Below the pieces are notes generated by a model. That model made no database searches. It worked only from the letters and a program-made list of their open reading frames with translations, and was not told where the DNA came from. From Candidatus Binatia bacterium (GTDB taxonomy: Bacteria > Desulfobacterota > Binatia > HRBIN30 > BPIQ01), in the NCBI GenBank assembly GCA_026004195.1, contig BPIQ01000001.1, positions 372,001 to 436,000 on the forward strand: a stretch of DNA of 64,000 bases, read 5' to 3'. The translations under genes were made by a program, and so were the position numbers. Of this stretch, positions 406 through 52,372 are shown in pieces. The number at the start of each line of letters is the position of its first letter. The stretch's first letter is position 1.

Positions 406-696
406 GTGCGCGCTATCGCGCGCCTTCTGAACAGCCTGCCGCGAGACGCGCGAGAGGAGTTACGAGACTACGCGGGGCATCTGCTTCGAGAGGAGACGGA
501 GGAAGCCGACAGGGGAGAGGGTGTAGGTCGGACGAGAGAACGGGTACGCAGCTTCAACGCCTTCGGGATCGCGATCCCCGTCGTGCTCGTCGGCGCCGTC
601 CTCATGGCGTTGTTTCCGCCGATCGGCGTACTCCTCCTGGTCGTGGGTGCGGGGCTCTTCGGTTGGGGAATCCTGGCGGCGCTCTGGGGGCGGTGA
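406..696 (+). CDS. Small membrane protein of unknown function
   Basis: About 96 residues. The N-terminal half is charged and helical (LPRDAREELRDYAGHLLREE). The C-terminal half is one long or two short hydrophobic helices separated by a PP turn (AVLMALFPPIGVLLLVVG), so it looks membrane-anchored with a cytoplasmic amphipathic head. The start is uncertain. GTG at 406 is the first conventional start, but the frame stays open back to 331 and the upstream codons read as a plausible helix (LEEREVERQVEEH), so a non-canonical upstream start is possible. It sits 31 bp before the Rieske gene and is probably co-transcribed with it. No family recognised. Confidence 0.6.
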   Translation: MRAIARLLNSLPRDAREELRDYAGHLLREETEEADRGEGVGRTRERVRSFNAFGIAIPVVLVGAVLMALFPPIGVLLLVVGAGLFGWGILAALWGR

Positions 697-727
697 CCGA
701 GCTTGCAAGTCGAGCGAGGCAAGCGGA

Positions 728-1321
728 ATGGCGAAAAAGCAGTTGAGCGCCGAGGAGCTCGCGGAGCTCCAGAAAAGGCGCCGGGAAGAACAGGAACGCG
801 AACGCGCGAAGCGTCTTCGCGAACACGCCCGGCGGCCGAGCCTCTGGTCCCGGCGTGACTTCTTCGGACGCCTCGGCTGGGGAGGGTTCGGTGTCTTTTC
901 GGGCCTCGCGCTCCTGAGCGCCATTCGCTCGGCGTTTCCCAGGGTACTCTTCACTCCGCCGGCCACCTTCAAGGCGGGCTTTCCGAGCGACTATGCGGTC
1001 GGAGAAGTCAGCGAACGCTTCAAGAAGGAGTACCGGGTCTGGATCGTGCGAGAGCCCGACGGCTTCTACGCGCTCTTCGCGAAATGCACGCACCTGGGTT
1101 GCACGCCGAGGTGGCTGCCGGTCGAGCAGAAATTCAAGTGTCCTTGTCACGGGAGCGGATTCCGGAAATCCGGAATCAACTTCGAGGGACCGGCGCCCCG
1201 GGCCCTCGAGCGCTTCCGCATCACGCTGGCCGACGACGGACAGATCCTGATCGACCGGAGCGTCAAGTACCTCTACGAAAAAGGGGAGTGGGACCGGCCG
1301 GGAGCCTTTCTCCGAGTCTGA
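728..1321 (+). CDS. Rieske iron-sulphur protein of a cytochrome bc/b6f-type complex
   Basis: About 197 residues, starting at ATG 728. Residues 1-40 are charged and helical. A twin-arginine motif (SRRDFFGRLG, 41-50) then precedes a hydrophobic helix (51-68), so this is a Tat-exported, membrane-anchored protein. The Rieske boxes are complete: CTHLGC at 120-125 and CPCHGS at 138-143. These give cluster ligands C120, H122, C138 and H141 and a disulphide pair C125-C140. The C-terminal extension (SVKYLYEKGEWDRPG) is typical of bc complexes with split cytochrome b. It would take electrons from quinol and pass them to a cytochrome c, here probably the octahaem protein four genes downstream. First gene of a tight respiratory operon. 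Confidence 0.93.
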   Translation: MAKKQLSAEELAELQKRRREEQERERAKRLREHARRPSLWSRRDFFGRLGWGGFGVFSGLALLSAIRSAFPRVLFTPPATFKAGFPSDYAVGEVSERFKKEYRVWIVREPDGFYALFAKCTHLGCTPRWLPVEQKFKCPCHGSGFRKSGINFEGPAPRALERFRITLADDGQILIDRSVKYLYEKGEWDRPGAFLRV

Positions 1322-1349
1322 GTTTCGTCCACCGGGAGTCGAGAAAGCC

Positions 1350-2120
1350 ATGAGTCGTTGGGAAGAGTTCAAGCGGCAGATCACGGAATCGCAGGTCTGG
1401 CAGTCCATCTTTCGCCACGGCTACGACGACACCCCGCGGAACCGGGTTCTCATGGTGTCGGGGAACGTGTGGCTGCACCTCCACCCCTCGAAGGTCCGCC
1501 GCCACGCGGTACGCCTGCGCTTCACCTGGTGCATGGGCGGCATCACGTTTCTCATGTTTCTCGTGACGGTCGTCACGGGCATCTACCTCATGTTCTACTA
1601 CCGCCCTACGGCCGAGTACGCCTACGCGGACATGAAATACCTCGAGTTCGACATGCCGTTCGGCATGCTCATGCGGAACATGCACCGATGGGCCGCTCAC
1701 GGGATGGTCATCGCCGTGTGGCTCCACATGTTCCGCGTGTTTCTGACCGGTTCCTACAAGCCGCCGCGGGAGTTCAACTGGGTCGTCGGCGTGATTCTGC
1801 TCGTCCTCACGCTCCTTCTGAGCTTCACGGGATACCTGCTGCCCTGGGATCAGCTTTCCATCTGGGCCGTCACCGTGGGCTCGAACATGGGAGCCGCGAC
1901 GCCGCTTCTGGGACACCAGGGGCCCTTCCACGAGTTCTTCGGGGTCAACCCCATCTACGACGCGCGCGCCTTCCTCTTCGGCGGAGGAGAGATCGGGTCC
2001 CACACGCTCCTGCGGTTCTACATCCTCCACTGTATTTTCATCCCGCTCGTGGCGAGCCTTTTCATGGCCGTCCACTTCTGGCGTATCCGCCGCGACGGCT
2101 TCTCGGGGCCGCCGCTCTGA
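1350..2120 (+). CDS. Cytochrome b6-like subunit (N-terminal half of split cytochrome b)
   Basis: 256 residues with four predicted membrane helices. Both haem-ligand pairs are present: H112/H126 in helix B (13 residues between) and H227/H242 in helix D (14 between). The 13/14 spacing is that of b6-type and Bacillus-type proteins. The GYLLPWDQ segment (161-168) is the conserved quinol-site loop after helix C. It is the quinol-oxidising core of the complex and works with the Rieske protein upstream and the subunit IV-like gene downstream. The N-terminus carries a 50-residue soluble extension. The split from subunit IV, with a tiny ORF between the halves, is notable. Confidence 0.93.
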   Translation: MSRWEEFKRQITESQVWQSIFRHGYDDTPRNRVLMVSGNVWLHLHPSKVRRHAVRLRFTWCMGGITFLMFLVTVVTGIYLMFYYRPTAEYAYADMKYLEFDMPFGMLMRNMHRWAAHGMVIAVWLHMFRVFLTGSYKPPREFNWVVGVILLVLTLLLSFTGYLLPWDQLSIWAVTVGSNMGAATPLLGHQGPFHEFFGVNPIYDARAFLFGGGEIGSHTLLRFYILHCIFIPLVASLFMAVHFWRIRRDGFSGPPL

Positions 2121-2170
2121 GCGGAGGACGAAACCGCCCGAGGTGACACGCGACGAGGAGGGAACGCCCG

Positions 2171-2257
2171 ATGCGAGTTCTGATGGCACCGCTCGTCATG
2201 GCGCTCATCATCTGGCTGCTCTACGTTCTCGCGCGGCCGAGGAAGAGCGATGGCTGA
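2171..2257 (+). CDS. 28-residue single-helix membrane peptide between the cytochrome b halves
   Basis: Too short for routine gene calling. ATG at 2171 is preceded by a strong Shine-Dalgarno (GAGGAGGG at 2155-2162, nine bases from the start). The peptide is one hydrophobic helix (VLMAPLVMALIIWLLYVLA) ending in a positive tail, RPRKSDG. Its stop overlaps the start of the next gene (ATGGCTGA, 2250-2257), so translation of the subunit IV-like gene is probably coupled to it. By position and size it resembles the single-helix small subunits of b6f complexes (PetG/PetL/PetM/PetN), but no sequence relationship can be claimed. Confidence 0.55.
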   Translation: MRVLMAPLVMALIIWLLYVLARPRKSDG

Positions 2258-3053
2258 ACCGGCGAAGGTCCTCGAGCCCAGACGCGTCGAGGTCCCGTTG
2301 CGGAAGGCCACGGGGCCGGGCGACGACAAGATCCACACCTGGCCGCATCTGGTGCGGAGCGAGTTTCTCTGTGCCCTCGTCGTGCTCCTGGTCCTGATCG
2401 TCTGGTCCCTGCTCGTGGACGCCCCGCTCGAGGAGCCGGCCAACCCGACGCGCACGCCCAACCCTTCCAAGGCCCCCTGGTACTTCCTGGGCTTGCAGGA
2501 AATGCTGGTCTTTTTCGACCCCTGGCACGCCGGGGTGGTCTTGCCGACTCTCATCATCGTGGGGCTCATGGTCATCCCGTACATCGACATCAACCCCAAG
2601 GGGAACGGCTACTACACGTTCCGGGAGCGGAAAATCGAGATCCTGACGTTCTTTTTCGGCTTCCACCTCCTCTGGGTTTCTCTGATCATCATCGGCACGT
2701 TCATGCGCGGCCCGGGGTGGAACTGGTTCTGGCCGTGGGAACCCTGGGACCCCCACAAGGTCGAGGCGATGACGAACGTCGACCTGCCGTTTCTTTTCGG
2801 GATCCGGGGTTACTGGACCGGTGCCGCGTTCGGTGCGGCGGTCATCCTCGGGTACTTCGTCCTCGGGACGCTGGCCATGTACGCCGCCATCGTACGGACG
2901 AAAGGCCGGGAATTCATGGAGCGGTGGGGGATGCCGCGCTTTCTCACCACGGCCTTTTTCTTCCTCAACATGCTCGCCGTCCTGATCAAGATGCTCCTCC
3001 GGCACGCGTTCAACGTGAAGTACATCCTGGTCACGCCCTGGCTCAACGTCTGA
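2250..3053 (+). CDS. Subunit IV-like C-terminal half of split cytochrome b
   Basis: 267 residues. A soluble N-terminus is followed by a helix (about 37-56), then APWYFLGLQEM at about 75-85, the counterpart of the PEWY quinol-site loop of cytochrome b/PetD with the Glu replaced. Further helices follow at about 97-113, 132-150, 187-210 and 235-250, more than the three of PetD, so this is the long C-terminal half found in some non-cyanobacterial complexes. It completes the quinol-oxidising site together with the b6-like subunit. The start overlaps the 28-codon ORF by 8 bases. A tryptophan-rich loop (WNWFWPWEPW, about 156-165) is unusual. Confidence 0.88.
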   Translation: MAEPAKVLEPRRVEVPLRKATGPGDDKIHTWPHLVRSEFLCALVVLLVLIVWSLLVDAPLEEPANPTRTPNPSKAPWYFLGLQEMLVFFDPWHAGVVLPTLIIVGLMVIPYIDINPKGNGYYTFRERKIEILTFFFGFHLLWVSLIIIGTFMRGPGWNWFWPWEPWDPHKVEAMTNVDLPFLFGIRGYWTGAAFGAAVILGYFVLGTLAMYAAIVRTKGREFMERWGMPRFLTTAFFFLNMLAVLIKMLLRHAFNVKYILVTPWLNV

Positions 3054-3075
3054 GCCGGTGGGATTTCCGAGCCCG

Positions 3076-3249
3076 ATGCTGTTCTACCTGGCCAAGCTGA
3101 TCCAGGCCGTCGGTTGTGCCGACGTGGGATACGCTCTTTTTCTCGGCCTTTCCGACCCCGAGCGGCTGGGACTCGAGTATCGTCTCGCCTTTCTCGGAGT
3201 CGCGATTTTCTACGCGGGGCGCCTCCTGGAAAGGCGCGTTTCCGCCTAG
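3076..3249 (+). CDS. Small two-helix membrane protein of the respiratory cluster
   Basis: 57 residues from ATG 3076; an in-frame GTG at 3058 would add six. Two hydrophobic segments (LFYLAKLIQAVGCADVGYALFLG and YRLAFLGVAIFYAGRLL) are joined by a short acidic loop (SDPERLGLE). It lies between the cytochrome b C-terminal half and the octahaem cytochrome with short gaps on both sides, so it is probably translated with them and may be an accessory subunit of the complex. No family recognised. Confidence 0.55.
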   Translation: MLFYLAKLIQAVGCADVGYALFLGLSDPERLGLEYRLAFLGVAIFYAGRLLERRVSA

Positions 3250-3264
3250 GAGGTCCGGAACCGA

Positions 3265-5961
3265 ATGGCTCGCACCCCCCTCCTGGAAGAAGAACGGCGC
3301 TCCTACAGCGCGCTCTTCGTGTTCCTGGTCGGGCTCCTGATCGCGGGAGCCGTGTGGGCGATCTGGGACGACAACATTTCGCGGAGGCCGTGGAAGAAAT
3401 ACCAGACCGAGTTCTACGTCGAGCAAGCGGAGAAAATCCGGCAGCAGATTCGCGCCGAAGAGGAGCGGCTCTCGAAGATCCCGGAATACGTGGAACTCCG
3501 AAAGAGCCTGCGAGAAGCGGAAGCTCGGCTCGAGAATCCGGAAACGAAGAGAAAAATCCGGGAACTCGAGCGAAAGCTCGCCGCGGCGAAGCTCGACACG
3601 CAGGAGTGGGATCTCAATTTGCGGATCGTGAAAAGCCGGATCGAAGAAGCCTGGTACGAGTACGATCACGCGGTTCTCACGGGCCACGGGGTGGAAGAAG
3701 CGAAGGCGGAGCTGGAACGACTCGAGCGCGAGAGAGAAGACACCGAGCGGCGCTACGAAGCCGCACAGGCGGAGCAAAAGCGCCTGGAGAAGGAGCTCGG
3801 GGAAGTACGGGGTCCCATCGAAGAACTGCGGCGCAAGATCCGGGACTTCGAAAGACAAAAGGAGCTGCTCGAACAGCGTCTGGGCGGGGTGCGGCTCGTT
3901 CTGGGGCCCTTCGAGTTCCCGAAAATCCCGAAGATCGAGCAGGTGGTGCTCGCCGAGTTCGACCGGGGAAACTTCGACACCCCGCTCAACCGGGTCGACC
4001 GCTGCCACTCCTGCCACATCGCCATCACGAAGGCCGGATTCGAGAACGAACCGCATCCCCTGCGGACGCATCCCCACATCGATCCTCTCCTGCGGAAGCA
4101 CCCGATCGAAAAGTTCGGCTGCACCCCCTGCCACGCGGGCCAGGGGCCCGCGGTGAACTCGCCGGAGCAAGCCCACGGTGAGGTGCGCTTCTGGGATTAC
4201 CCGCTCCTCCGGGGGGAAAAAGTGCAGTCGAGCTGCCTTCGCTGCCACGTCGACACGCGCCACCTCCCCCATGCCGAGACAGCGGCGAAAGGGCAGGTTC
4301 TCTTCGAGGAGCTCGGCTGCCACAACTGCCACCTGACCGAGGGGTACGAGAACTTCGGGAAGGTGGGTCCTTACCTCCGGCGCATCGGAGCCAAAGTCGA
4401 CCCGGACTGGCTCGTGCGCTGGGTCGAGAACCCTCACGACTACCGGCCGCGGACCAGGATGCCGAACTTCGAGTTCGGGCGAAAAGAAGCCGTCGCGATC
4501 GCGGCCTACCTGCTCGATTCCAGCAAGGAAGAAAGTCGCGCCTGGCTCGAGAGCCACCCCGAGCCCTCCGGGGTCGACCCCGAAGACCCCGACCTCGTGG
4601 CGCGCGGAAAGGAACTCGTCGACTCGCTCGGCTGCCGAGGCTGCCACGGGCTCGCGCCCGACGAGTCCCCCGCGCTTCTCGGCGAGAGCAAGGACATCGC
4701 ACCGAACCTCTCCCGCATCGCCGAGAAGACGAGCGGCCGCTGGCTCTACCACTGGCTTCGGAACCCGAGGGATTACTCGCCCGTCTCCCGCATGCCGAGC
4801 CTCCGGCTCTCGGACGAAGAAGCACGCGCCGTCGCGTCCTATCTGCTCACGCTCGGGCGGAAGCCACGCCCCGGAGTTTCCCCGGCGGAGCTGCGGGACC
4901 CGGAGACGATCCGGGAGGGCGAACGGCTCGTCCGCAAGTACGGGTGCGCGGGCTGCCACGACATCGTGGGAATGGAAAAAGAGAGCCGGATCGGCGTCGA
5001 GCTCTCCACGTTCGCGTCCAAGCCGCTCGAAGAGCTTTTCTTCGGTTACCGGAAGGACATCCCGCGGACCTGGGACGACTGGACGTACCACAAGCTCGAG
5101 AACCCGCGGACCTACGCCACCGACCGCGTCGAGCAGCTCATGCCGAACTTCCACCTGACGGACGGGGAGATCCGGGCGCTCCGGGTTTTTCTCGCGAGCC
5201 GGGTGGACAGCCATATCCCAGAGAAGTATCTCGCCCATGCGACACCCCGGATGCAGAAGATTCTCAAGGGGCGGAGACTCGTCGCTCGCTACAACTGCGT
5301 CGGCTGCCACGTGATCGAAGGCGAGGGGGGAGCCATCCGCCGCCTCTACGAAAACGAGCCCAACATGGCGCCGCCCGTGCTCACGGGCGAAGGAGCCAAA
5401 GTGCAAGCCGAGTGGCTCTTCGCCTTCCTGAAGGAGCCCGTCCCGATCCGCCCGTGGCTCCGCGTCCGGATGCCGACCTTCCACTTCTCGGACGAGGAGG
5501 CCACGGCGCTGGTCGAATACTTCGCGGCACTCGACGGGATCGACGTTCCCTTCGCCCACATGGCCGAATCGGAAATTTCGCCGGACATGGTCGAAGCCGG
5601 GAAGCTTCTGGCCTCGGAGGAGTATTTCTCCTGCTTCTCGTGCCACATGCAGGGAGACCGCACTCCGGAAGGCTCGCCGGAGGAGTGGGCTCCGGATCTG
5701 GCGATGGCCCGGGAACGGCTGCGTCCGGACTGGATCCCGCGCTGGCTCGAAGACCCGCAAGCCCTGCAGCCGGGCACGAAAATGCCTTCTTTCTACCCCG
5801 GAGGCCCGGAGGACGTTCTCGGAGGCGACGAACAGAAACAGAGGGAAGCTCTCCGAGACTACCTCTGGGAGCTCGGGCGAGAGGCTCGCCTCGCGGCCGT
5901 AGGCTCGACCCAAGGTGGACCGGAAGCTAAGAATAGCACCGAAGGAGGTGAAGAAGGATGA
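3265..5961 (+). CDS. Membrane-anchored coiled-coil octahaem cytochrome c
   Basis: 898 residues. A single N-terminal helix (about 16-35) anchors a periplasmic protein. Residues about 50-220 are an extremely charged, heptad-like coiled coil rich in E, R and K. Eight CxxCH haem motifs follow: C247 (CHSCH), C286 (CTPCH), C324 (CLRCH), C352 (CHNCH), C457 (CRGCH), C561 (CAGCH), C678 (CVGCH) and C790 (CFSCH). The first three are closely spaced. The last five each head a class I-like cytochrome c domain with a distal M in 'RMP-' or 'LMPNF' segments. It probably carries electrons from the Rieske protein to the oxidase. The stop overlaps the cupredoxin start (ATGA). The partner assignment rests on gene order only. 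Confidence 0.85.
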   Translation: MARTPLLEEERRSYSALFVFLVGLLIAGAVWAIWDDNISRRPWKKYQTEFYVEQAEKIRQQIRAEEERLSKIPEYVELRKSLREAEARLENPETKRKIRELERKLAAAKLDTQEWDLNLRIVKSRIEEAWYEYDHAVLTGHGVEEAKAELERLEREREDTERRYEAAQAEQKRLEKELGEVRGPIEELRRKIRDFERQKELLEQRLGGVRLVLGPFEFPKIPKIEQVVLAEFDRGNFDTPLNRVDRCHSCHIAITKAGFENEPHPLRTHPHIDPLLRKHPIEKFGCTPCHAGQGPAVNSPEQAHGEVRFWDYPLLRGEKVQSSCLRCHVDTRHLPHAETAAKGQVLFEELGCHNCHLTEGYENFGKVGPYLRRIGAKVDPDWLVRWVENPHDYRPRTRMPNFEFGRKEAVAIAAYLLDSSKEESRAWLESHPEPSGVDPEDPDLVARGKELVDSLGCRGCHGLAPDESPALLGESKDIAPNLSRIAEKTSGRWLYHWLRNPRDYSPVSRMPSLRLSDEEARAVASYLLTLGRKPRPGVSPAELRDPETIREGERLVRKYGCAGCHDIVGMEKESRIGVELSTFASKPLEELFFGYRKDIPRTWDDWTYHKLENPRTYATDRVEQLMPNFHLTDGEIRALRVFLASRVDSHIPEKYLAHATPRMQKILKGRRLVARYNCVGCHVIEGEGGAIRRLYENEPNMAPPVLTGEGAKVQAEWLFAFLKEPVPIRPWLRVRMPTFHFSDEEATALVEYFAALDGIDVPFAHMAESEISPDMVEAGKLLASEEYFSCFSCHMQGDRTPEGSPEEWAPDLAMARERLRPDWIPRWLEDPQALQPGTKMPSFYPGGPEDVLGGDEQKQREALRDYLWELGREARLAAVGSTQGGPEAKNSTEGGEEG

Positions 5962-6674
5962 AACGGTTGCGCCGAATCGTCGTCGGAATCGCGAGCCTGG
6001 GTGTCGCCGTGGCGGTCGCCTGGGCCTACCAGTCGGGAAACGTGGCAAACGGCGGGAAGATCACGGGTAGCGTGATCTACAAGGGGAAGGCCCCCGAGCC
6101 CAAGCCGCTCGAGGTCACCAAGGACACGGCGGTGTGCGGGAAAGAAAAGCACTTCGACGAAAGCCTGCTCGTCGGCCCGGGCGGCGGCCTCCAGAACGCG
6201 GTCGTTTCGCTCGTGGGGATCTCGCAAGGAAAGGCCTTTTCACCCGAGAAGAGGGTCCTCCGGCAGAAAGGGTGCCGTTACATCCCGCACGTCTTCCTCG
6301 TCCCCGCCGGGGTCGAGTTCGACATCACGAACGAAGACGGTGTCCTCCACAACATCCACACCTACAGCAAGAAGAACCCTCCCGTGAACCGAGCCCAGCC
6401 GAAGTTCAAGAAAGTGATCCAGGAAAAGTTCACCGAGCCCGAGATCTTCGAGGTCCGCTGCGACGCCCACGGCTGGATGGGAGCCTGGATCGTGGTCCAG
6501 GACCACCCCTACTACGCGGTGACGGGCCCGGACGGGAAGTTCGAGCTCGCCGACGTGCCGCCCGGGGAATACGAAATCCGCGTCTGGCACGAGAAACTCG
6601 GCGAACAGACGCAGAAAGTGACGGTTCCCGCCGGCGGGGAAGCCTCCGTGCAGTTCTCGTTCGCCGCGGGTTGA
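5958..6674 (+). CDS. Exported cupredoxin-like protein with a carboxypeptidase-regulatory-like domain
   Basis: 238 residues with a signal peptide (KRLRRIVVGIASLGVAVAVAWA). The middle region is a plastocyanin-type fold with a type 1 copper site: H131 after NEDGVL, then C168, H171 and M174 in RCDAHGWMG. The C-terminal 50 residues (GPDGKFELADVPPGEYEIRVWH) form a carboxypeptidase-regulatory-like beta sandwich. Similar proteins are often labelled methylamine utilisation proteins. Its place between the octahaem cytochrome and oxidase subunit II suggests an electron carrier or copper donor to CuA; that role is inferred. Preceded by a good ribosome site (GAAGGAGGTG). Confidence 0.8.
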   Translation: MKRLRRIVVGIASLGVAVAVAWAYQSGNVANGGKITGSVIYKGKAPEPKPLEVTKDTAVCGKEKHFDESLLVGPGGGLQNAVVSLVGISQGKAFSPEKRVLRQKGCRYIPHVFLVPAGVEFDITNEDGVLHNIHTYSKKNPPVNRAQPKFKKVIQEKFTEPEIFEVRCDAHGWMGAWIVVQDHPYYAVTGPDGKFELADVPPGEYEIRVWHEKLGEQTQKVTVPAGGEASVQFSFAAG

Positions 6675-6700
6675 CCAGCGGGACGTCAAGGAACCCCGAG

Positions 6701-7402
6701 ATGCTCCGCTGGCTGCCGGAGAACGTCTCCACCTACGGGGAGAAAATCGACGGGATTTTCTACCTCATCTACTACATCACGGGAGCGACGTTCGTCCTCG
6801 TCACCGCCCTCCTCGTCGCCTTTCTCGTGCTCTACCGGCACAGACCGGGTCGGAAAGCCGTCTACACGCACGGCAACACGGCGCTCGAGATCACGTGGAC
6901 CATCGTGCCGGCCGTGATCATGGTCGTCCTCGGGCTCGTGAGCAAAGCTCGCTGGGACGAGGTCAAGGTCGACATCCCCCGGGGCGACATCCAGGTCCGC
7001 GTGACCGGAAAGCAGTTCAACTGGGAAATCCTCTATCCCGGGCCCGACGGAAAATTCGACACCGAGGACGACCTCCAGATCGACAACGACCTGCACGTGC
7101 CCGTGGGGAAGGTCGTACGCGTGGCCCTGCGTTCGAAGGACGTGATCCACAGCTTTTTCCTGCCGCACCTCCGCCTCAAGCAGGACACCGTTCCGGGCCG
7201 GGAGATCCTCACCTGGTTCGAAGCCACGAAACCCGGGACGTACGAAATCCCCTGTGCCGAACTCTGCGGCTTCGGCCACTCGGGCATGAAGGGAACGCTC
7301 TACGTCCACACGCCGGAAGATTACGCGCGGTGGGTCGCCGAAAAGTGGCCCGCGCAGCAAGCCAGGCTCGGCACGAAATCCGAAGCGGAAGCGAGGGGGT
7401 GA
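6701..7402 (+). CDS. coxB: Cytochrome c oxidase subunit II
   Basis: 233 residues. Two N-terminal membrane helices (about 20-45 and 60-80) are followed by a periplasmic cupredoxin domain. The CuA ligands are complete: H150, C185, E187, C189, H193 and M196, in the CAELCGFGHSGM motif. An insertion, GPDGKFDTEDD, near residue 110 is seen in several bacterial subunit II proteins. No fused cytochrome c domain is present, so this is an aa3-type rather than caa3-type subunit and depends on a separate donor. It receives electrons and passes them to haem a in subunit I. The subunit I gene starts four bases after the stop. Confidence 0.95.
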   Translation: MLRWLPENVSTYGEKIDGIFYLIYYITGATFVLVTALLVAFLVLYRHRPGRKAVYTHGNTALEITWTIVPAVIMVVLGLVSKARWDEVKVDIPRGDIQVRVTGKQFNWEILYPGPDGKFDTEDDLQIDNDLHVPVGKVVRVALRSKDVIHSFFLPHLRLKQDTVPGREILTWFEATKPGTYEIPCAELCGFGHSGMKGTLYVHTPEDYARWVAEKWPAQQARLGTKSEAEARG

Positions 7403-7406
7403 AACG

Positions 7407-9164
7407 ATGAGCCAAGCCGCGGTGGCAGCGCACGGAGCCGAGGTCCATCACGAGGAACTCGGCTTCTGGCGACGCTACGTCTTCTCCACGGACCACAAGA
7501 CGATCGGCCGGCAGTTTCTCTTTCTCGGTCTGGTCATGATGCTCCTGGGCGGCATCCTGGCGCTGCTCGTGCGCTGGGAGCTCGGATGGCCCGAGACGCG
7601 GGTTCCGCTGATGGGTTGGGTGCCCGAACCCTTCATGTACGACGGCTACATGGGGCCCGAGTTCTACAACGCCGTCTTCACGATGCACGCGACGATCATG
7701 ATCTTTTTCGCCGTCATGCCCATCCTGGTGGGCGGGTTCGGCAACTTTCTCATCCCCCTCATGATCGGCGCCCGCGACATGGCCTTTCCCTTTCTCAACA
7801 TGCTTTCGTTCTGGGTGGCGGTCGTGGCCGGTGTGATCATGCTCGCGGGCTTTTTCGTGCCCGGAGGGCACGCCGCGACGGGCTGGACGGCCTACGCCCC
7901 GCTTTCGGCGGTGCCCACGTATTCCGGCGTCGACTGGGGACAGAACCTCTGGTGCCTGAGTCTCATCGTCCTCGGCATTTCCTCGCTCATGGGTTCGATC
8001 AACTACATCACGACGGTCGTGAACATGCGGGCTCCGGGCATGACGTTCTTCCGGCTACCGCTCGTCATCTGGTCGCTCTTCATCGTCGCGATCCTCCTCC
8101 TCCTGGCTCTCCCCGTGCTCACGGCCGCGCTCGGTATGCTTCTCTTCGACCGGATGGCCGGCACGAGCTTTTTCCTTCCCGAGGGCGGCGGGGAGCCTCT
8201 TCTCTGGCAGCACCTTTTCTGGTTTTTCGGCCACCCCGAAGTCTACATCCTGATCCTGCCGGCCATGGGCGTGGCCTCGGAGATCCTGCCCGTTTTCGCC
8301 CGCAAGCCCATCTTCGGCTACCGAGCCATGGCCTACTCGATGATCGCCATCGCGTTCCTCAGCTGGATCGTCTGGGGTCACCACATGTTCCAGAGCGGCA
8401 TGAACCCGACCCTCGGGTCGACGTTCATGATCACCACGATGCTCATCGCGGTGCCCTCGGCCATCAAGACCTTCAACTGGCTCGGGACGCTCTGGGGGGG
8501 CGACATCCACTTCACGACTCCGATGTTGAACGCTCTCGCCTTCGTGTCGATGTTCGTCATCGGCGGGCTCAGCGGGATCTACATGGCCTCCACCCCGGTC
8601 GACATCTTCATCCACGACACCTACTTCATCGTGGCGCACATCCACTACGTGGTGTTCGGCGGTAGCGTCTTCGCCATCTTCGCGGCCGTCTACTACTGGT
8701 TCCCGAAGATGTTCGGCCGGATGATGAACGAGACGCTCGGGAAGATCCACTTCTGGCTCACGTTCGTGGCCTTCAACTGCACCTTCTTCCCCATGCACAT
8801 CCTGGGCGTGGGCGGGCACATGCGCCGGATCTACAATCCGCTCCAGTACGAGTTCCTGAAGCCGCTCCAGCCCATCAACGAGTTCATCAGCATCTCGGCC
8901 ATCTGTCTCGGCATCGCACAGATCCCCTTCATCGTGAACTTCTTCTGGAGTCTCGCCTTCGGGCGGAAGGCCGAACGCAACCCCTGGAAGGCCAACACGC
9001 TCGAGTGGGACGCCCCGTCGCCGCCACCCCACGGAAACTTCGAGTCGATTCCCACCGTCTACCGGGGACCGTACGAGTACAGCTCCCCGCTCGTCCCCGA
9101 AGACTGGCTGCCCCAGACCCGCAGGCTCGCTCCGGAGCGCGCGGCGGCCGCCACCGTCTCCTGA
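7407..9164 (+). CDS. coxA: Cytochrome c oxidase subunit I (A-type haem-copper oxidase)
   Basis: 585 residues with about 12 helices. CuB ligands are H276, H325 and H326. Y280 is the cross-linked tyrosine of GHPEVY, and E278 in the same motif marks the A1 class with a full D-channel. H411 (haem a3) and H413 (haem a) lie in VAHIHYVV, and the first haem a ligand is in TMHATIMIF. This is the proton-pumping oxygen-reducing core. The C-terminus has a soluble tail of about 60 residues. Together with the adjacent haem A synthase it predicts an aa3 oxidase. Confidence 0.97.
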   Translation: MSQAAVAAHGAEVHHEELGFWRRYVFSTDHKTIGRQFLFLGLVMMLLGGILALLVRWELGWPETRVPLMGWVPEPFMYDGYMGPEFYNAVFTMHATIMIFFAVMPILVGGFGNFLIPLMIGARDMAFPFLNMLSFWVAVVAGVIMLAGFFVPGGHAATGWTAYAPLSAVPTYSGVDWGQNLWCLSLIVLGISSLMGSINYITTVVNMRAPGMTFFRLPLVIWSLFIVAILLLLALPVLTAALGMLLFDRMAGTSFFLPEGGGEPLLWQHLFWFFGHPEVYILILPAMGVASEILPVFARKPIFGYRAMAYSMIAIAFLSWIVWGHHMFQSGMNPTLGSTFMITTMLIAVPSAIKTFNWLGTLWGGDIHFTTPMLNALAFVSMFVIGGLSGIYMASTPVDIFIHDTYFIVAHIHYVVFGGSVFAIFAAVYYWFPKMFGRMMNETLGKIHFWLTFVAFNCTFFPMHILGVGGHMRRIYNPLQYEFLKPLQPINEFISISAICLGIAQIPFIVNFFWSLAFGRKAERNPWKANTLEWDAPSPPPHGNFESIPTVYRGPYEYSSPLVPEDWLPQTRRLAPERAAAATVS

Positions 9165-47246: not shown

Positions 47247-47768
47247 GTGAAAGTTCGCCGCCTTCTGGTTCCGGTCGACTTCTCGGAGGCTTCCGAAGCT
47301 GCGCTCGTCTACGCCTCCGATCTGGCGAAAATCTTCGGCGCGCGGATCGTCCTGCTGCACGTGGTCGAACCGCTGCCTTCTCCGGTACCCGTGGAGATCT
47401 ACGGCGGCGGGGCCGCCGACTTCACGCGGCTCTACACGTTACAGCAGGAGGCCGCCCGGCGAGAGATGGCTCGCCTCGAGGAAATCCCGCGCCGGCGGCG
47501 CATTGCCGTCGAGTCCGCGCTGCGGAGCGGCGCGCCCGCCGCGACCATCGTGGAGGCGGCCGGGTCCCTCGGGGCCGACATGATCGTCATGGCGACGCAC
47601 GGGAGGACGGGGCTTTCTCATCTGCTCCTCGGCAGCGTCACCGAAAGGGTCGTCCGGACGGCGCACTGCCCGGTTCTGACCGTGCGCGTGGGCGACACCG
47701 TGCCGAAACGACGGCGCCGCACTTCGGCGCACCCCGCTCGACGGCTCAGCGGCCGTAGGAAACGGTGA
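47247..47768 (+). CDS. Universal stress protein (UspA family)
   Basis: 173 residues from GTG 47247. The alpha/beta Usp fold starts with LLVPVDFSEASEAALVYASDLA. The ATP-binding motif G-x2-G-x9-G-S/T is present in HGRTGLSHLLLGSVTERVVRTA, so it is an ATP-binding type. The tail (PKRRRRTSAHPARRLSGRRKR) is strongly basic and unusual. Its 3' end overlaps the convergent beta-barrel gene by 23 bp. Role in stress response inferred from family. Confidence 0.9.
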   Translation: MKVRRLLVPVDFSEASEAALVYASDLAKIFGARIVLLHVVEPLPSPVPVEIYGGGAADFTRLYTLQQEAARREMARLEEIPRRRRIAVESALRSGAPAATIVEAAGSLGADMIVMATHGRTGLSHLLLGSVTERVVRTAHCPVLTVRVGDTVPKRRRRTSAHPARRLSGRRKR

Positions 47769-49224
47769 CTTCCACGTAGCCGTAGTCGGCGTCGCTGTCG
47801 GCGAAGTTCTCTCCCACGACGTCCTCGCCGAACGCGTGGCCGTAGTACGCGTAGACTTCGAGCCAGTCGAGAGGCGACCACGTGACCGCCAGGTCCACGA
47901 GGTGTCCGAGGTCGCGCCCACCACCGCTCGGCAAGCCGGCGAACCCGAACACCGTGTCGCTCGTCGCCCCGCCGCCCGCGTACCAGAGGTCTCGGGCCTC
48001 GGTGAGGCGAAGCCAGTGGTAGTCGAGACGCAGCGAAAGGACCGGGCTCGGCCGGAGGAGGAGCTGGGCGAAAAAGTCCTGGTTGTTCATCAGGTTGAAA
48101 AAGGGGAACTGGGCGTAGATCCGCGCCGTGGGCAGCATCTGGAAAAACGTCTCGTGGGTACCGTCGCCGGCGTCGTCGTCGCCCGAGGAGCGAAAAAGTC
48201 CCGCCCGCACCCAGGGGCCGAAAGGCCACGACGGCCAGCGATAACCGCCCTCGAGACCGTAAGCCCACGCCACGTGGTCGAGCCGTCCCCACGAGCCCGC
48301 CTGTCCTGCCACCCAGAAGAGGCCGTCCACCCGACCCGGACCGAGAGGGCGCACACCGAGCACGTGCCCGCCCACGGTGTGGATGTCCACGGAACCGGAA
48401 TCCTCGCGTCTTTCGGAGACCGATCGGTTGTCCACCTTCACGGCTCGATCGCGCTCGTCGCGGTAGTAAAAGTAGAAGAGTCGCGCGTCCAGGCTTTCCG
48501 GACCCGAATACGTGGCGCTCGCTCCCGCGAGCCAGACGTCGAGCTCCCGGTTCGCGCTCACCTCGAAGCCGCCGCGTGTGGGTCGAACGCCGAGCACCGT
48601 CCACCGGACCGAGCGCAGGTCGTAGTCGATCCGAAGGCCGTCGAAACTACGGGTCACGTGGGTGAATCCGAAAGGGCCCACGAGCCTCTGCGAAATCCGG
48701 GCGCTTTTGAGCCAGGCCAGGGTGGGGTTCCGGGGTCGCACCTCGAGACCATCGGCGTATTCGAAACGCCCCCCGAGAAGCTCGAGCCCCCCGACGCCCA
48801 GTGGGTCACGCCAGCGCAGAAAGGCCTCCTTCAGGAAGGTCTCGCCCTGGCTCGTGGCGCGCGTGTGGGAGAAGTAGAGAGCCCCGGGGCCGAGGTTTCC
48901 GACCGCCGACTCCGGAGGGCTCGCGTCGGACGGCAGGTTTTCGAGCCGCGTATCCTGCAAGGTCAGGGTCCACTCCGCCTTTCCCGCCGATACCCGGAAC
49001 CCGGCCCGCAGCCGGTTCGCGAAAAAATCGTAGCGCTCGGCGCCTCGAGGGGCGCTCGCGGGGGCCGGTCCGAACCAGTCGACGAATTCACCCCGCACCC
49101 GGTCCGAGAAAAAAGGCCGCACCTCTGCCCCGAGGAGCGACAGGGGGCCGGCCGCGGTCGCCACGGAGACCAGGACGATCGAGGAGGCCAGGCTCGCGGC
49201 GAGCTCAAGGCACCGTCTTCTCAT
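47746..49224 (-). CDS. Outer-membrane beta-barrel porin (alginate-export-like)
   Basis: 492 residues. A signal peptide (ASLASSIVLVSVATA) is followed by alternating strands ending in a YGYVEVTVSYGR terminal strand, typical of outer-membrane barrels. Segments such as FLKEAFLRWRDPLGVGGLELLGGRFEYADG and SRRLD-like DLRSVRWTVLGVRP resemble the alginate-export/AlgE-type family that accompanies many electron-transport loci. It is last in the operon Rieske, cytochrome b, octahaem cytochrome, barrel, and overlaps the octahaem gene by 20 bp. Likely a channel for a small substrate or product, or a partner for the octahaem protein. Confidence 0.82.
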   Translation of the reverse strand: MRRRCLELAASLASSIVLVSVATAAGPLSLLGAEVRPFFSDRVRGEFVDWFGPAPASAPRGAERYDFFANRLRAGFRVSAGKAEWTLTLQDTRLENLPSDASPPESAVGNLGPGALYFSHTRATSQGETFLKEAFLRWRDPLGVGGLELLGGRFEYADGLEVRPRNPTLAWLKSARISQRLVGPFGFTHVTRSFDGLRIDYDLRSVRWTVLGVRPTRGGFEVSANRELDVWLAGASATYSGPESLDARLFYFYYRDERDRAVKVDNRSVSERREDSGSVDIHTVGGHVLGVRPLGPGRVDGLFWVAGQAGSWGRLDHVAWAYGLEGGYRWPSWPFGPWVRAGLFRSSGDDDAGDGTHETFFQMLPTARIYAQFPFFNLMNNQDFFAQLLLRPSPVLSLRLDYHWLRLTEARDLWYAGGGATSDTVFGFAGLPSGGGRDLGHLVDLAVTWSPLDWLEVYAYYGHAFGEDVVGENFADSDADYGYVEVTVSYGR

Positions 49225-50806
49225 CGTACCGTTCCCGGTAGGCTCTTCGGAGGGCCTCGGCCTCCTCGGTTCGAAGGCCGCGCAGCCACGCGTGGTCCTC
49301 TCCCGAGAGCAACTCCTCCACTCGTGCCCGCCACGTATCGCCCTTCCCGTGCCTTTCGGCCAGCTCCACGACCTCCGGCAGGAACTTCGTGTAGAAGTGC
49401 TTGGCCACCTCGTACATGCCGTGCCACTGCGTGAAGTCGGGCCCCATCATGGAAGCCCCGTGCCGCGCCCGCCGCCCCTCGTGGTGCCAGAGCTCGAAAA
49501 AGGTCCACTCGACTTTTTCCGCGAACGGAACGCGCGGGTCCAGGAACCCTTCGGCGTAGAGGCCGTCGACGAGAGCCTTCGCCGGCCGGGCGAACTTCTC
49601 GTTGTACAGCGACACGAGAGAGTCGAACTGCTGGTAGAAGTGGTCCACGTAGGTGTGGTTGTGGCAGTTGAGGCAGACGCCCTTCATCGCCTCGCGCCGC
49701 TCGCGCCACGTGATCACACGGGACACCCTTCTCGGTACCGTACGGCGTACGAGCTCGTCTCCTCGACGCACGAGCTCCACGGTCTCGACCGTTTCTCCTT
49801 CTTTCGGAAGGGGGCGCGTCTCCGGGTAATCCTCCTGGTAGCCATCCTCGAACTTCACCAGGTTGATCTTCGTCGACACGACCGGGCGCAAGGTCCAGCT
49901 GATTCTCTCGCCCACGTCGTGGGTGTTCCCCTTCACCTCGCCCGTGGGCGAGACATAACTCGAGATGTGACAAGTGGCGCACGTCGGGGCCGAAAAGTAG
50001 TCCCGGCCGAGCACCCAATCGCCGTCTTTGTCGAGCGCCATGCGGTGCCGGTTGGCGTAGAACGCGATGCCGTGCTTGGACTCGTTGTAGATCTCGATCT
50101 GGGGGTGGTCCGGACCCATGTGGCACTTCCCGCAGTTCTCGGGGCTACGGGAGAGCTTCGCCTGGAACTCGTGGCGGCTGTGGCACGCGTGGCAACTGCC
50201 CTTCGACCCGTCCGGGTTGATCCGCCCCATCCCGCTGTTGGGCCACGTCTCCGGGTCGACGAGCGGCTTTTGTTCGGGCCCCACACGCTGCACGTCGCCG
50301 GAAGCCGTCCGGACGAACCGCACGATGGACCCGTGGCACTGCATGCAGCCGTTCACGGCGGCGGCCCGGTTGCCGGGGCTGCCCTCGACCTTTTCCGCGA
50401 GCACGTTGTCGAGGCTCGCCAGAATTTCACCCGCCCGGGCGTGATGGCTCCGCCGGAACTCCTCGTGTTCTTTCGCGTGGCACCGGCCGCAATCGAGAGG
50501 GGTGACGAGTGCCGAGACCCACACCCCCTCGTGGCGCCACGCATCCACGTCCCGCTCCTCGGCCGCGTGGCACTCGAGGCACCCCACCCCGACGCGGGCG
50601 TGGGCCGAAGCCTTCCACTGCAGGACGAGAGCCGCCGAATGTTTCGCGTGGCAGGTGACGCACGCCTCGTTCGCGGCGGTCACGACGGGCGGCGGTTCCT
50701 CCTCCGCGCGGTGCTTGAGCGTCTCCCGGTAGGCCACCAGAAGCAACGCCAGAAGAAAGAAGAGACTCAGTACGGCGATGACGAACCGCTTCGCTTCGAG
50801 CGACAT
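49205..50806 (-). CDS. Octahaem cytochrome c, hydroxylamine oxidoreductase (HAO)-like
   Basis: 533 residues with an N-terminal helix (7-25) as uncleaved anchor or signal. Eight CxxCH motifs lie at C49, C76, C106, C154, C205, C225, C276 and C378, in the HAO order with long gaps around the catalytic haem. Further HAO-type histidines are in ESKHGIAFY (about 242-250), and the C-terminal helix FTQWHGMYEVAKHFYTKF matches the family. HAO-like enzymes oxidise hydroxylamine or hydrazine, or run in reverse as nitrite/hydroxylamine reductases. It is preceded by a purine-rich ribosome site and lies between cytochrome b and the barrel, so electron exchange with the quinone pool is likely. Confidence 0.87.
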   Translation of the reverse strand: MSLEAKRFVIAVLSLFFLLALLLVAYRETLKHRAEEEPPPVVTAANEACVTCHAKHSAALVLQWKASAHARVGVGCLECHAAEERDVDAWRHEGVWVSALVTPLDCGRCHAKEHEEFRRSHHARAGEILASLDNVLAEKVEGSPGNRAAAVNGCMQCHGSIVRFVRTASGDVQRVGPEQKPLVDPETWPNSGMGRINPDGSKGSCHACHSRHEFQAKLSRSPENCGKCHMGPDHPQIEIYNESKHGIAFYANRHRMALDKDGDWVLGRDYFSAPTCATCHISSYVSPTGEVKGNTHDVGERISWTLRPVVSTKINLVKFEDGYQEDYPETRPLPKEGETVETVELVRRGDELVRRTVPRRVSRVITWRERREAMKGVCLNCHNHTYVDHFYQQFDSLVSLYNEKFARPAKALVDGLYAEGFLDPRVPFAEKVEWTFFELWHHEGRRARHGASMMGPDFTQWHGMYEVAKHFYTKFLPEVVELAERHGKGDTWRARVEELLSGEDHAWLRGLRTEEAEALRRAYRERYDEKTVP

Positions 50807-50854: not shown

Positions 50855-51919
50855 CTAGCTTCCGGCGAAAGCCTCCCACACCGTGAGGGCCAGGAAAGCG
50901 AGAAACCCGAGCACCCCGAGAACGACCGAGAAATCCCGGGGAATTCCGACCTTGGCAAGGGCGGTCTCGAGAAACGGCCAGAAGAAGATCAGAGTCCCCG
51001 CGAACAGGGTGAGCCGGACGCTCGTCTCGAGCGAGGTGAGCTTCAGGAGCCGGTAGTTGAAGAAGAAGTACCACTCGGGGCGAATGTGCTCCGGCGTCAC
51101 CGTGGGATCCGCCTCGGGGCCGAGTCCGGCCGGGAACACGAGGCACAGCACGGTCAGGACGAACATGAGCAGGACACCGATCAGGAGTTCGGTCGTCGCG
51201 TGGTGAGGCCAGAAGGGAAGAGTCCGTTCGGACCTCGGCGGCTGGTGTCGAAAGCGCAGTTCCGTGACACCGTGCAGCCGGACGAGGGCGATGTGAGCGA
51301 AAAGCAAGGCCAACATGACGGTGGGAAAGAGCCCGATATGGAACACGAAAAAGCGCGTGAGCGTGTTGGCGCTGACTTCCGGCCCGCCTCGCATGAGCGT
51401 CGCCGCCGGTTTCCCCACGAGCGGCAGGGCCTCGACGAGGTTCGAGGCCACGGTCGCTCCCCAGAACGAGAGTTGGTCGTAGACGAGCGAGTAGCCCGTG
51501 AAGCCGAAACCCAGCGTGCAGCCGAGGAGGCCGAGTCCCACGCACCAGTTGAGCTCCCGAGGGTGGCGATAGGCGCCCGTGAAAAAGACCCTGAGGAGGT
51601 GGAGGAAGACGGCGACGATCATGAGATTCGCCGACCACTTGTGGAGCGACCGCAGGTACCAGCCGAAACGTACCTCCTCCGTGATGAAGGCGACACTCTG
51701 GTGCGCGGCCGACGGATCGGGCACGTAGTAGAACGTCAGCAGGATTCCCGTGACGACCTGCACGACGAAAAGGTAGAGCGGGGTCCCGCCGAGGCACCAC
51801 CACCAGTTCTGCAGGTGGTACGGTACCGGCTCGCTTCCGAACGACCGCAAGAAATCCCAGTCGACGGGCAGGTGTTCGGCGAAAAAGGCTCCCACGCTCC
51901 TCGGCCTCTGTCTGGCCAC
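50855..51919 (-). CDS. Cytochrome b (fused b6/subunit IV type) of a second Rieske complex
   Basis: 354 residues from GTG 51919. Haem ligands H93/H107 and H194/H209 keep the 13 and 14 residue spacing. The quinol-site loop GYSLVYDQLSFWG (142-154) and PEWYFFFNYRLLKL (281-294) are intact. Helices after the PEWY loop complete a fused cytochrome b of about eight helices. It differs from the split cytochrome b of the first cluster, so the organism has two distinct bc-type complexes. Coupled with the Rieske gene upstream and the octahaem cytochrome downstream. Confidence 0.92.
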   Translation of the reverse strand: MARQRPRSVGAFFAEHLPVDWDFLRSFGSEPVPYHLQNWWWCLGGTPLYLFVVQVVTGILLTFYYVPDPSAAHQSVAFITEEVRFGWYLRSLHKWSANLMIVAVFLHLLRVFFTGAYRHPRELNWCVGLGLLGCTLGFGFTGYSLVYDQLSFWGATVASNLVEALPLVGKPAATLMRGGPEVSANTLTRFFVFHIGLFPTVMLALLFAHIALVRLHGVTELRFRHQPPRSERTLPFWPHHATTELLIGVLLMFVLTVLCLVFPAGLGPEADPTVTPEHIRPEWYFFFNYRLLKLTSLETSVRLTLFAGTLIFFWPFLETALAKVGIPRDFSVVLGVLGFLAFLALTVWEAFAGS

Positions 51920-51934: not shown

Positions 51935-52372
51935 TCAGGCCAGCAAGAACACGTTCCCCGAGTTCGGGTCGATTTCGAGCGGAACCTTCTCGAGGCTCTG
52001 CCCCGCCTCCGCCGGCGGTCCCGCGACGGCACGGCCGGTCGAGTCGAAAACCCCGTTGTGGCAGGGGCAGAAAAATCGCGACTTCTCGGGCTCCCAGTGC
52101 ACGCGGCAACCCAGGTGCGGGCAGCGCGTATCGAACGCCTCGAGCCGGCCGGCGATGCCGAGAAGGAGAAGGGACCGCCCCCGGGGGTCGCTCACCAGAC
52201 GGGGCTTTTCGAGAAGGTCCGGGAGTCGCCCCACGTAGAGCCGAGCGCGTCTTTTCTCGCGGCGCGGAGGGAAGAGGTAGGCGATGCCGTACGCCCCCAG
52301 AAGGCCGTAGCTAGCGAGCAAGCCCACCGCCGCCGCCACGGAACTCAGAAATCCACGCCGATCCCGCCGCAT
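51935..52372 (-). CDS. Rieske iron-sulphur protein of the second complex
   Basis: 145 residues from ATG 52372, chosen because the twin-arginine motif [11 protein letters not shown] then lies at the N-terminus before the anchor helix (11-34). Rieske boxes: CPHLGC (C84, H86, C89) and CPCHNG (C102, C104, H105). The frame is open further upstream with other ATGs, so the start is not certain, and no clear ribosome site is seen. First gene of the minus-strand module, divergent from the sigma54-type regulator. Confidence 0.9.

Follow-up and report, generated by a model that had tools for sequence, protein, structure and literature searches.

An octahaem cytochrome c encoded beside Rieske and cytochrome b genes in a Binatia bacterium: a candidate quinol-fed nitrite reductase

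We analysed a window of 64,000 nucleotides from Candidatus Binatia bacterium (assembly GCA_026004195.1, contig BPIQ01000001.1, positions 372,001 to 436,000) whose minus strand encodes, in this order, a Rieske protein, a cytochrome b and an HAO-like octahaem cytochrome c. The octahaem gene is an open reading frame (ORF, 50806..49205) with an ATG start that encodes 533 amino acids and eight CxxCH motifs. The cytochrome b gene (354 amino acids, 50855..51919, minus strand) lies directly upstream and its product contains the quinol-site motif PEWY. The Rieske 2Fe-2S protein (51935..52372, minus strand) carries the cluster motif CPHLGC...CPCHNGVFD; its start near 52372 was chosen by hand at a twin-arginine-like signal and the ORF stays open to 52618. 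Directly downstream of the octahaem gene, a porin-like Alginate_exp-family gene (47746..49224, minus strand) overlaps its end by 20 bases, and a sigma-54-type response regulator (from about 52580, plus strand) is divergent from the operon.

A sequence-only reading of this DNA had placed an HAO-like enzyme with the segment D-F458-T-Q-W-H-G at 49205-50806; the ORF and the segment are real and lie on the minus strand. The CxxCH motifs, located from the alignment, start at C49, C76, C106, C154, C205, C225, C276 and C378. Pfam domains PF13447 (78.6 bits, cut-off 21.9), PF13435 and PF14522 are found on the protein, and its eight c-type haem motifs together with its HAO fold place it in the HAO-like octahaem cytochrome c superfamily. 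The NCBI HDH equivalog model gives 68 bits where 900 are required. Residues 3-32 form an N-terminal helix in the AlphaFold model (predicted local distance difference test score, pLDDT, 91), which would act as a membrane anchor or signal. Towards the C-terminus the sequence is RRARHGASMMGPDFTQWHGMYEVAKHF, and the part bearing Phe458 reads ARHGASMMGPDFTQWHGMYEV. An invariant pair, D233-H234 (50105..50110, minus strand), corresponds in the alignment to the DH of true HAO, at 4fas chain positions 267/268 as counted by hand, a pair that we take to be catalytic in HAO. By homology with HAO the fourth haem motif, CMQCH (residues 154-158, 50333..50347, minus strand), would hold catalytic haem 4 (PMC12758564, cited here, like the other papers, from excerpts).

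The closest PDB sequence by phmmer is 4qo5 (E 1.3e-51), titled 'Hypothetical multiheme protein', which we take to be the octahaem cytochrome c of Ignicoccus hospitalis. Chains of HAOr, HAO and HDH follow at E 4.7e-16 to 7.6e-13, with their best stretches confined to residues 202-308. For the AlphaFold model, too, 4qo5 is the best fold match (Z 27.6, root-mean-square deviation 3.2, 408 aligned residues), followed by HAO, HAOr and HDH at Z 18.8-23.5, and NrfA entries lie near 10. Relatives were taken as the best 80 of 237 related stretches from a genome-contig scan. They are 47-70% identical to the window protein in the best segment and span many phyla, anammox genera among them. At E 0.001, 17 of the 58 genomes of the relatives set, the own genome counted, contain a match, five of these being weak (E 2.9e-7 or worse). 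From 112 candidates we dropped the window itself (L001), broken or partial sequences (L072, L073, L067) and other multihaem proteins (L136, L138, L095). The remaining 105 proteins and the window protein formed a 106-row MAFFT alignment with 87 family rows, two 4qo5-like rows and 17 HAO/HDH/HAOr rows. In the resulting tree, built by a quick method with midpoint rooting and several long branches flagged, the 17 HAO/HDH/HAOr rows stand on one side of a branch (SH-like approximate likelihood ratio test, 99), apart from the window family and the 4qo5-like rows. Two 4qo5-like anammox proteins adjoin the window family, inside which the window protein, L082 and L083 form a group (99). The window protein thus neither branches with oxidative HAO/HDH nor reaches the HDH-model cut-off; its family, large and HAO-like, is nearer to 4qo5 than to true HAO. 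Separately, an HAO-like protein of Candidatus Brocadia pituitae (L111, 1201-2667) retains a stretch NP..FTY resembling the one in Nitrosomonas HAO, and may therefore be a Tyr-bearing, oxidative enzyme.

The segment around Phe458 is strongly conserved. Residues 440-448 (WHHEGRRAR) as well as M453 (codon 49448..49450), P456, D457, W461 (codon 49424..49426) and G463 are invariant in all 87 family rows, so the segment is not a chance feature. Position 458 (codon 49433..49435) is Tyr in 83 rows, Phe in three (the window protein, L015 and L031) and Trp in one (L078). Tyr is therefore usual at 458 in the family, and Phe occurs there as a scattered exception. Position 460 (codon 49427..49429; these four codons lie on the minus strand) is Gln in the window protein, with His in 74 rows, Gln in 11 and Phe in two across the family, and position 465 is Tyr in 78 rows and Phe in nine. 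In every row M453 and W461 fit the signature published for reductive Hao, in which Trp stands at the tyrosine position and Met eight residues before it (PMC8940962); W461 is matched to that position by sequence alignment.

The sequence-only reading had proposed that Phe458 replaces the tyrosine that cross-links to the P460 haem of oxidative HAO, and most alignments, like the Met-x7-Trp signature, point elsewhere. We take the cross-linking residue of Nitrosomonas HAO to be Tyr467; counting along the 4fas row, 467 is the Y of W-T-Y-T-E-G-W, and the corresponding T-Y tyrosines are 451 in Kuenenia HAO (L122) and 462 in HDH. In the 106-row MAFFT alignment, E430-W461 (32 residues) runs ungapped against the 32 residues of L122 that end at Tyr451, which puts W461 in the tyrosine column and M453 in the column of the His eight residues before it. 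We then placed the tyrosine in 120 resampled MAFFT alignments from three Tyr-bearing rows each. Among the 360 placements, W461 received 131, Q460 91, H462 69, F458 34 and Y465 12, with 23 elsewhere or in a gap. The stretch YQQFDSLVSLY (residues about 391-401), which had been named as another possible site, is rejected, as none of the 360 placements falls before residue 458. A profile-profile comparison of a mixed alignment put the tyrosine on 460.

A structural placement was read from the range ends of VIA-align, assuming no gap and with tyrosine numbers counted by hand, those of 6t5e and 4n4n_E resting in addition on hand-derived numbering offsets. The tyrosine falls on 460 for 4n4j, 4n4m and 6t5e, on 461 for 6hif_I and 4n4n_E, on 463 for 4fas_A and on 464 for 1fgj_A, so that five of the seven P460-bearing rows lie at 460-461, two at 463-464 and none at 458. 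The first Trp of SWWWG in HAOr (6h5l) falls on 461. The aligned Phe of 4qo5 lands on 463, which indicates that range ends can slip. The window model is helical from residue 456 through the 458-461 stretch, and the Gly/Pro-rich sequence after Tyr467 of HAO suggests a loop there; an exact equivalent of the tyrosine may not exist. We infer that W461, as the best candidate, or Q460, as the second, corresponds to the cross-linking tyrosine, both standing well ahead of F458 though short of proof. Since F458, Q460 and W461 are all residues other than Tyr, absence of the P460 cross-link and reductive chemistry are still the best prediction from the sequence. The earlier prediction of this chemistry therefore stands as supported, not proven, by the commonest placements, the grouping with 4qo5-like proteins and the linkage to Rieske/cytochrome b and partly to nap genes, and the premise that Phe458 stands in for the tyrosine finds no support in most alignments. 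Phe458 is probably a scattered Tyr-to-Phe change near the site and not the cause of a missing cross-link. The earlier caveat that alignment by eye was the weak point still applies.

Gene neighbourhoods of the family link the octahaem gene to quinol oxidation and, in some relatives, to nitrate reduction. Counts use the 80 genome-contig loci only, with the overlapping pieces L086-L110 and the window (L001) excluded from the 38 'RB' entries. In 25 of the 80 loci the octahaem gene is directly preceded by cytochrome b, and 24 of these also have a Rieske match; at the 25th, L010, the available DNA begins at cytochrome b. Eight further loci have too little upstream DNA and 47 have no adjoining cytochrome b. 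A NapA or NapA-like gene is found in the available flank of 8/25 loci with cytochrome b and of 0/47 without, unchanged at looser E (Fisher p about 9e-5, a value that ignores kinship and differences in flank length). The NapA cut-off of 904 is passed by five of the eight (L074, L075, L077, L078 and L079). NapG and NapH homologues occur in six of the eight loci and a NapB-like protein in four. Further NapA-like genes, outside this count, are present at L089/L102/L107 (one place), at L092/L100/L108 (one place) and at L019 and L076, where the upstream DNA is absent. In the window and 30 loci, all 31 cytochromes b examined carry PEWY or PEWF. A Rieske cluster motif was recovered at 30 of these 31 places, ending each time in CPCHxxxF and not CPCHGSxY. 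Absence of the Ser and Tyr of CPCHGSxY suggests a lower Rieske potential and a menaquinone-type chain. As an observation on the nearest relatives, which are of the same order, L082 has Rieske and cytochrome b upstream and L083, by eye, a carboxyltransferase-like ORF; from this contrast the linkage appears to be gained or lost over short distances.

The own genome was searched for other nitrogen and respiratory genes. NrfA, Hcp and NirK were not found at E 0.001, NirS yielded weak partial propeller matches only, and of NorB there was no sign, the two PF00115 matches both being of COX1 strength. Eight molybdopterin-domain matches in seven ORFs comprise five nearest to dimethyl sulfoxide (DMSO) reductase type II but below its cut-off, one FdhF/YdeP-like and one NuoG-like. 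Four of the genes nearest to DMSO reductase type II, below the model cut-off, lie within 18 kb of each other on contig C1 of the own genome (about 1534000-1552000).

We favour, at a probability of roughly 57%, a membrane-anchored, quinol-fed octahaem nitrite reductase that ends a Rieske/cytochrome b chain. Menaquinol or another quinol would be oxidised at the PEWY site of cytochrome b, and one electron would pass by way of the Rieske protein to the haems of the membrane-anchored octahaem protein and on to haem 4 (CMQCH), where nitrite, or possibly hydroxylamine or nitric oxide, would be reduced, most likely to ammonium. Haem 4 would be an ordinary c-haem because Trp461, or less likely Gln460, and not Tyr would stand at the place of the tyrosine. 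Nitrite or hydroxylamine reductase activity is predicted from the genomic linkage. We infer direct transfer from the Rieske protein to the octahaem protein, with nitrite as substrate and ammonium as product; reduction of nitrite to ammonium would be the simplest fit, as neither NorB nor Hcp shows up in the own genome. Tentatively, and with somewhat more doubt than confidence, we extend this to many phyla, in which an octahaem nitrite reductase would replace cytochrome c1/f in a Rieske/cytochrome b complex to form a single energy-conserving quinol:nitrite oxidoreductase. If the octahaem protein does replace c1/f, the CPCHxxxF motif, as its residues are generally understood, would mean a chain tuned to menaquinol.

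Several observations weigh against the quinol-fed nitrite reductase. The 47 of 80 loci without an adjoining cytochrome b include anammox-genus loci. In the own genome no NapA-level ORF is present among the molybdopterin-domain matches, so the source of nitrite is unproven, and there are two COX1 genes as well as two more for cytochrome b; with two haem-copper oxidases, nitrite respiration need not be central. All this would also fit a reductive octahaem enzyme that draws on another donor for detoxification or assimilation of nitrite, nitric oxide or hydroxylamine, the Rieske protein and cytochrome b being co-expressed and passing electrons elsewhere, for example to the haem-copper oxidases. 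We regard this as unlikely, given the close spacing of cytochrome b and octahaem genes at 25 loci in at least ten phyla as judged from record titles, 24 of them with an upstream Rieske match, and given ORFs so tightly packed or overlapping that little room is left between them for a separate c-type subunit gene. The close relative L083 also has no cytochrome b next door. As for nap, L006, L008 and L011 have NapA as the best match at 422-694 bits, below the cut-off of 904 (the L011 ORF ends at a contig edge), and four of the five strong NapA loci (L074, L075, L078 and L079) are close kin on a branch more distant from the window. Because the strong cases are mostly kin and flank lengths are unequal, the NapA association is indicative only.

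The remaining points against the quinol-fed nitrite reductase concern the tyrosine. Residue 458 could itself be the P460 position, in which case most of the family, with Tyr458, would carry P460 and be oxidative and the window protein a rare Tyr-to-Phe loss mutant turned reductive. The family column, Tyr in 83 of 87 rows, would suit this, and so would the helices: F458 is third in a helix from residue 456, as Tyr451 is in a helix from 449 in a Kuenenia HAO model that is poor (17 sequences, pLDDT 44.8) and was used for helix limits only. Family-only hhalign of the profile against Tyr-bearing HAO/HDH points the same way and leaves the tyrosine position unfixed: over 24 runs the tyrosine was unaligned in 12, on 458 in nine of the 12 placed runs, on 460 in two and on 492 in one. 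Two of the 24 alignments were inspected residue by residue; the 458-type one tears the preceding helix apart, and the one with HAOr rows added aligns the helix better, with small gaps, and puts the tyrosine on 460. The mixed-profile result, the 34 of 360 MAFFT placements and the hand-counted, no-gap range ends likewise disfavour 458, and 4qo5 carries a Trp at the phmmer-aligned position. Moreover, L078, despite its Trp458, is flanked by Rieske/cytochrome b and nap genes just as its sisters with Tyr458 (L074, L075 and L079) are, from which we argue that residue 458 does not switch function. We therefore consider a P460 tyrosine at 458 improbable. Least credible, to a degree that makes it very hard to sustain, is an oxidative hydroxylamine or hydrazine dehydrogenase that either lacks P460 or takes its tyrosine from an unexpected place. 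Tyr465, which the sequence-only reading did not consider, would be such a place, with Tyr in 78 of 87 rows and 12 of the 360 placements, and the overall HAO/HDH fold and the conserved D-H pair would be in keeping with oxidation. Against it stand Phe at 465 in nine rows, the linkage to quinol-side genes, plus nap in some relatives, and the grouping with 4qo5-like proteins instead of the Tyr-bearing set.

A second Rieske/cytochrome b set is present on the plus strand of the window (527-9161). It comprises a Rieske ORF (527-1318), an N-terminal (1251-2117) and a C-terminal (2184-3050) part of cytochrome b, a cytochrome c in a 903-amino-acid frame with eight CxxCH motifs (3250-5958) and a COX1 gene (7290-9161).

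These results bear on how HAO-like genes are read. Nitrification cannot be read from an HAO annotation (PF13447, hao) alone, because the family spans many uncultured phyla, groups apart from the Tyr-bearing enzymes and partly travels with quinol-oxidising and nitrate-reducing genes. Whether Tyr or Phe stands five residues beyond the invariant Met is an unsafe marker of P460, and the choice of alignment method alone can shift the key site by three residues. According to the excerpt of PMC12758564, the large majority of HAO relatives outside anammox bacteria are predicted to be reductive. The same source gives His, not Trp, as the reductive key site, which would fit residue 460 of the window family; the disagreement with PMC8940962, which gives Trp, could be explained by the neighbouring W461 and His/Gln460. 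PMC10716430, in the part available, mentions ihOCC by name only, and the available parts of PMC10732223, PMC11266412 and PMC6896113 yielded no residue-level information on the tyrosine site.

Among proteins of known structure, 4qo5 resembles the window protein at two sites: it has Met where the window protein has M453, and Phe, likewise aromatic, where the window protein has W461. It differs in sequence (29% identity over the structural alignment) and lacks the WHHEGRRAR and WHG stretches. Nitrosomonas HAO (1fgj, 4fas), Kuenenia HAO (4n4j) and HDH (6hif) share the fold, the eight haems and the D-H pair with the window protein, whereas the place of their Tyr467/451/462 is most likely not a tyrosine in the window protein, and high-scoring phmmer matches to HAO/HDH are confined to residues about 202-308. 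By its published description, the eHao, or reductive HAO, of Campylobacterota and Caldithrix abyssi has the Met-x7-Trp signature in common with the window family. A parallel in gene order, also compared by published description, is Caldithrix abyssi, in which Rieske, cytochrome b and eHao genes stand side by side in a nap cluster and for which nitrite reduction has been proposed and direct electron transfer from Rieske to eHao suggested (PMC5317091). The octahaem operon of the window has the same adjoining genes, but no napA adjoins it. The same paper, as excerpted, notes that nothing points to Nap and eHao being electrogenic on their own; should the Rieske/cytochrome b-octahaem unit prove to be a real complex, it could offer nitrite reduction an electrogenic path. 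In Kuenenia, the HAO-like octahaem protein Kuste4574 co-migrates with the Rieske/b complex Kuste4569-4574, and nitrite reduction has been proposed for it, though not shown (PMC12954380, PMC12485887). The window operon is similar in combining an HAO-like octahaem protein with Rieske/cytochrome b. The Kuenenia complex, as described in those excerpts, has a cytochrome b of the b6 type and also includes a protein resembling subunit IV, a further multihaem cytochrome and a putative NAD(P) oxidoreductase. All of these are absent from the window operon, which encodes a single cytochrome b. Kuste4574 is also described there as a close homologue of HAOr, and HAOr lies in our tree on another branch than the window family. 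Clusters of an octahaem protein with Rieske/cytochrome b are thus already in print for Caldithrix and, with different subunits, for Kuenenia; the window adds a further member of the family and a corrected reading of its key residue.

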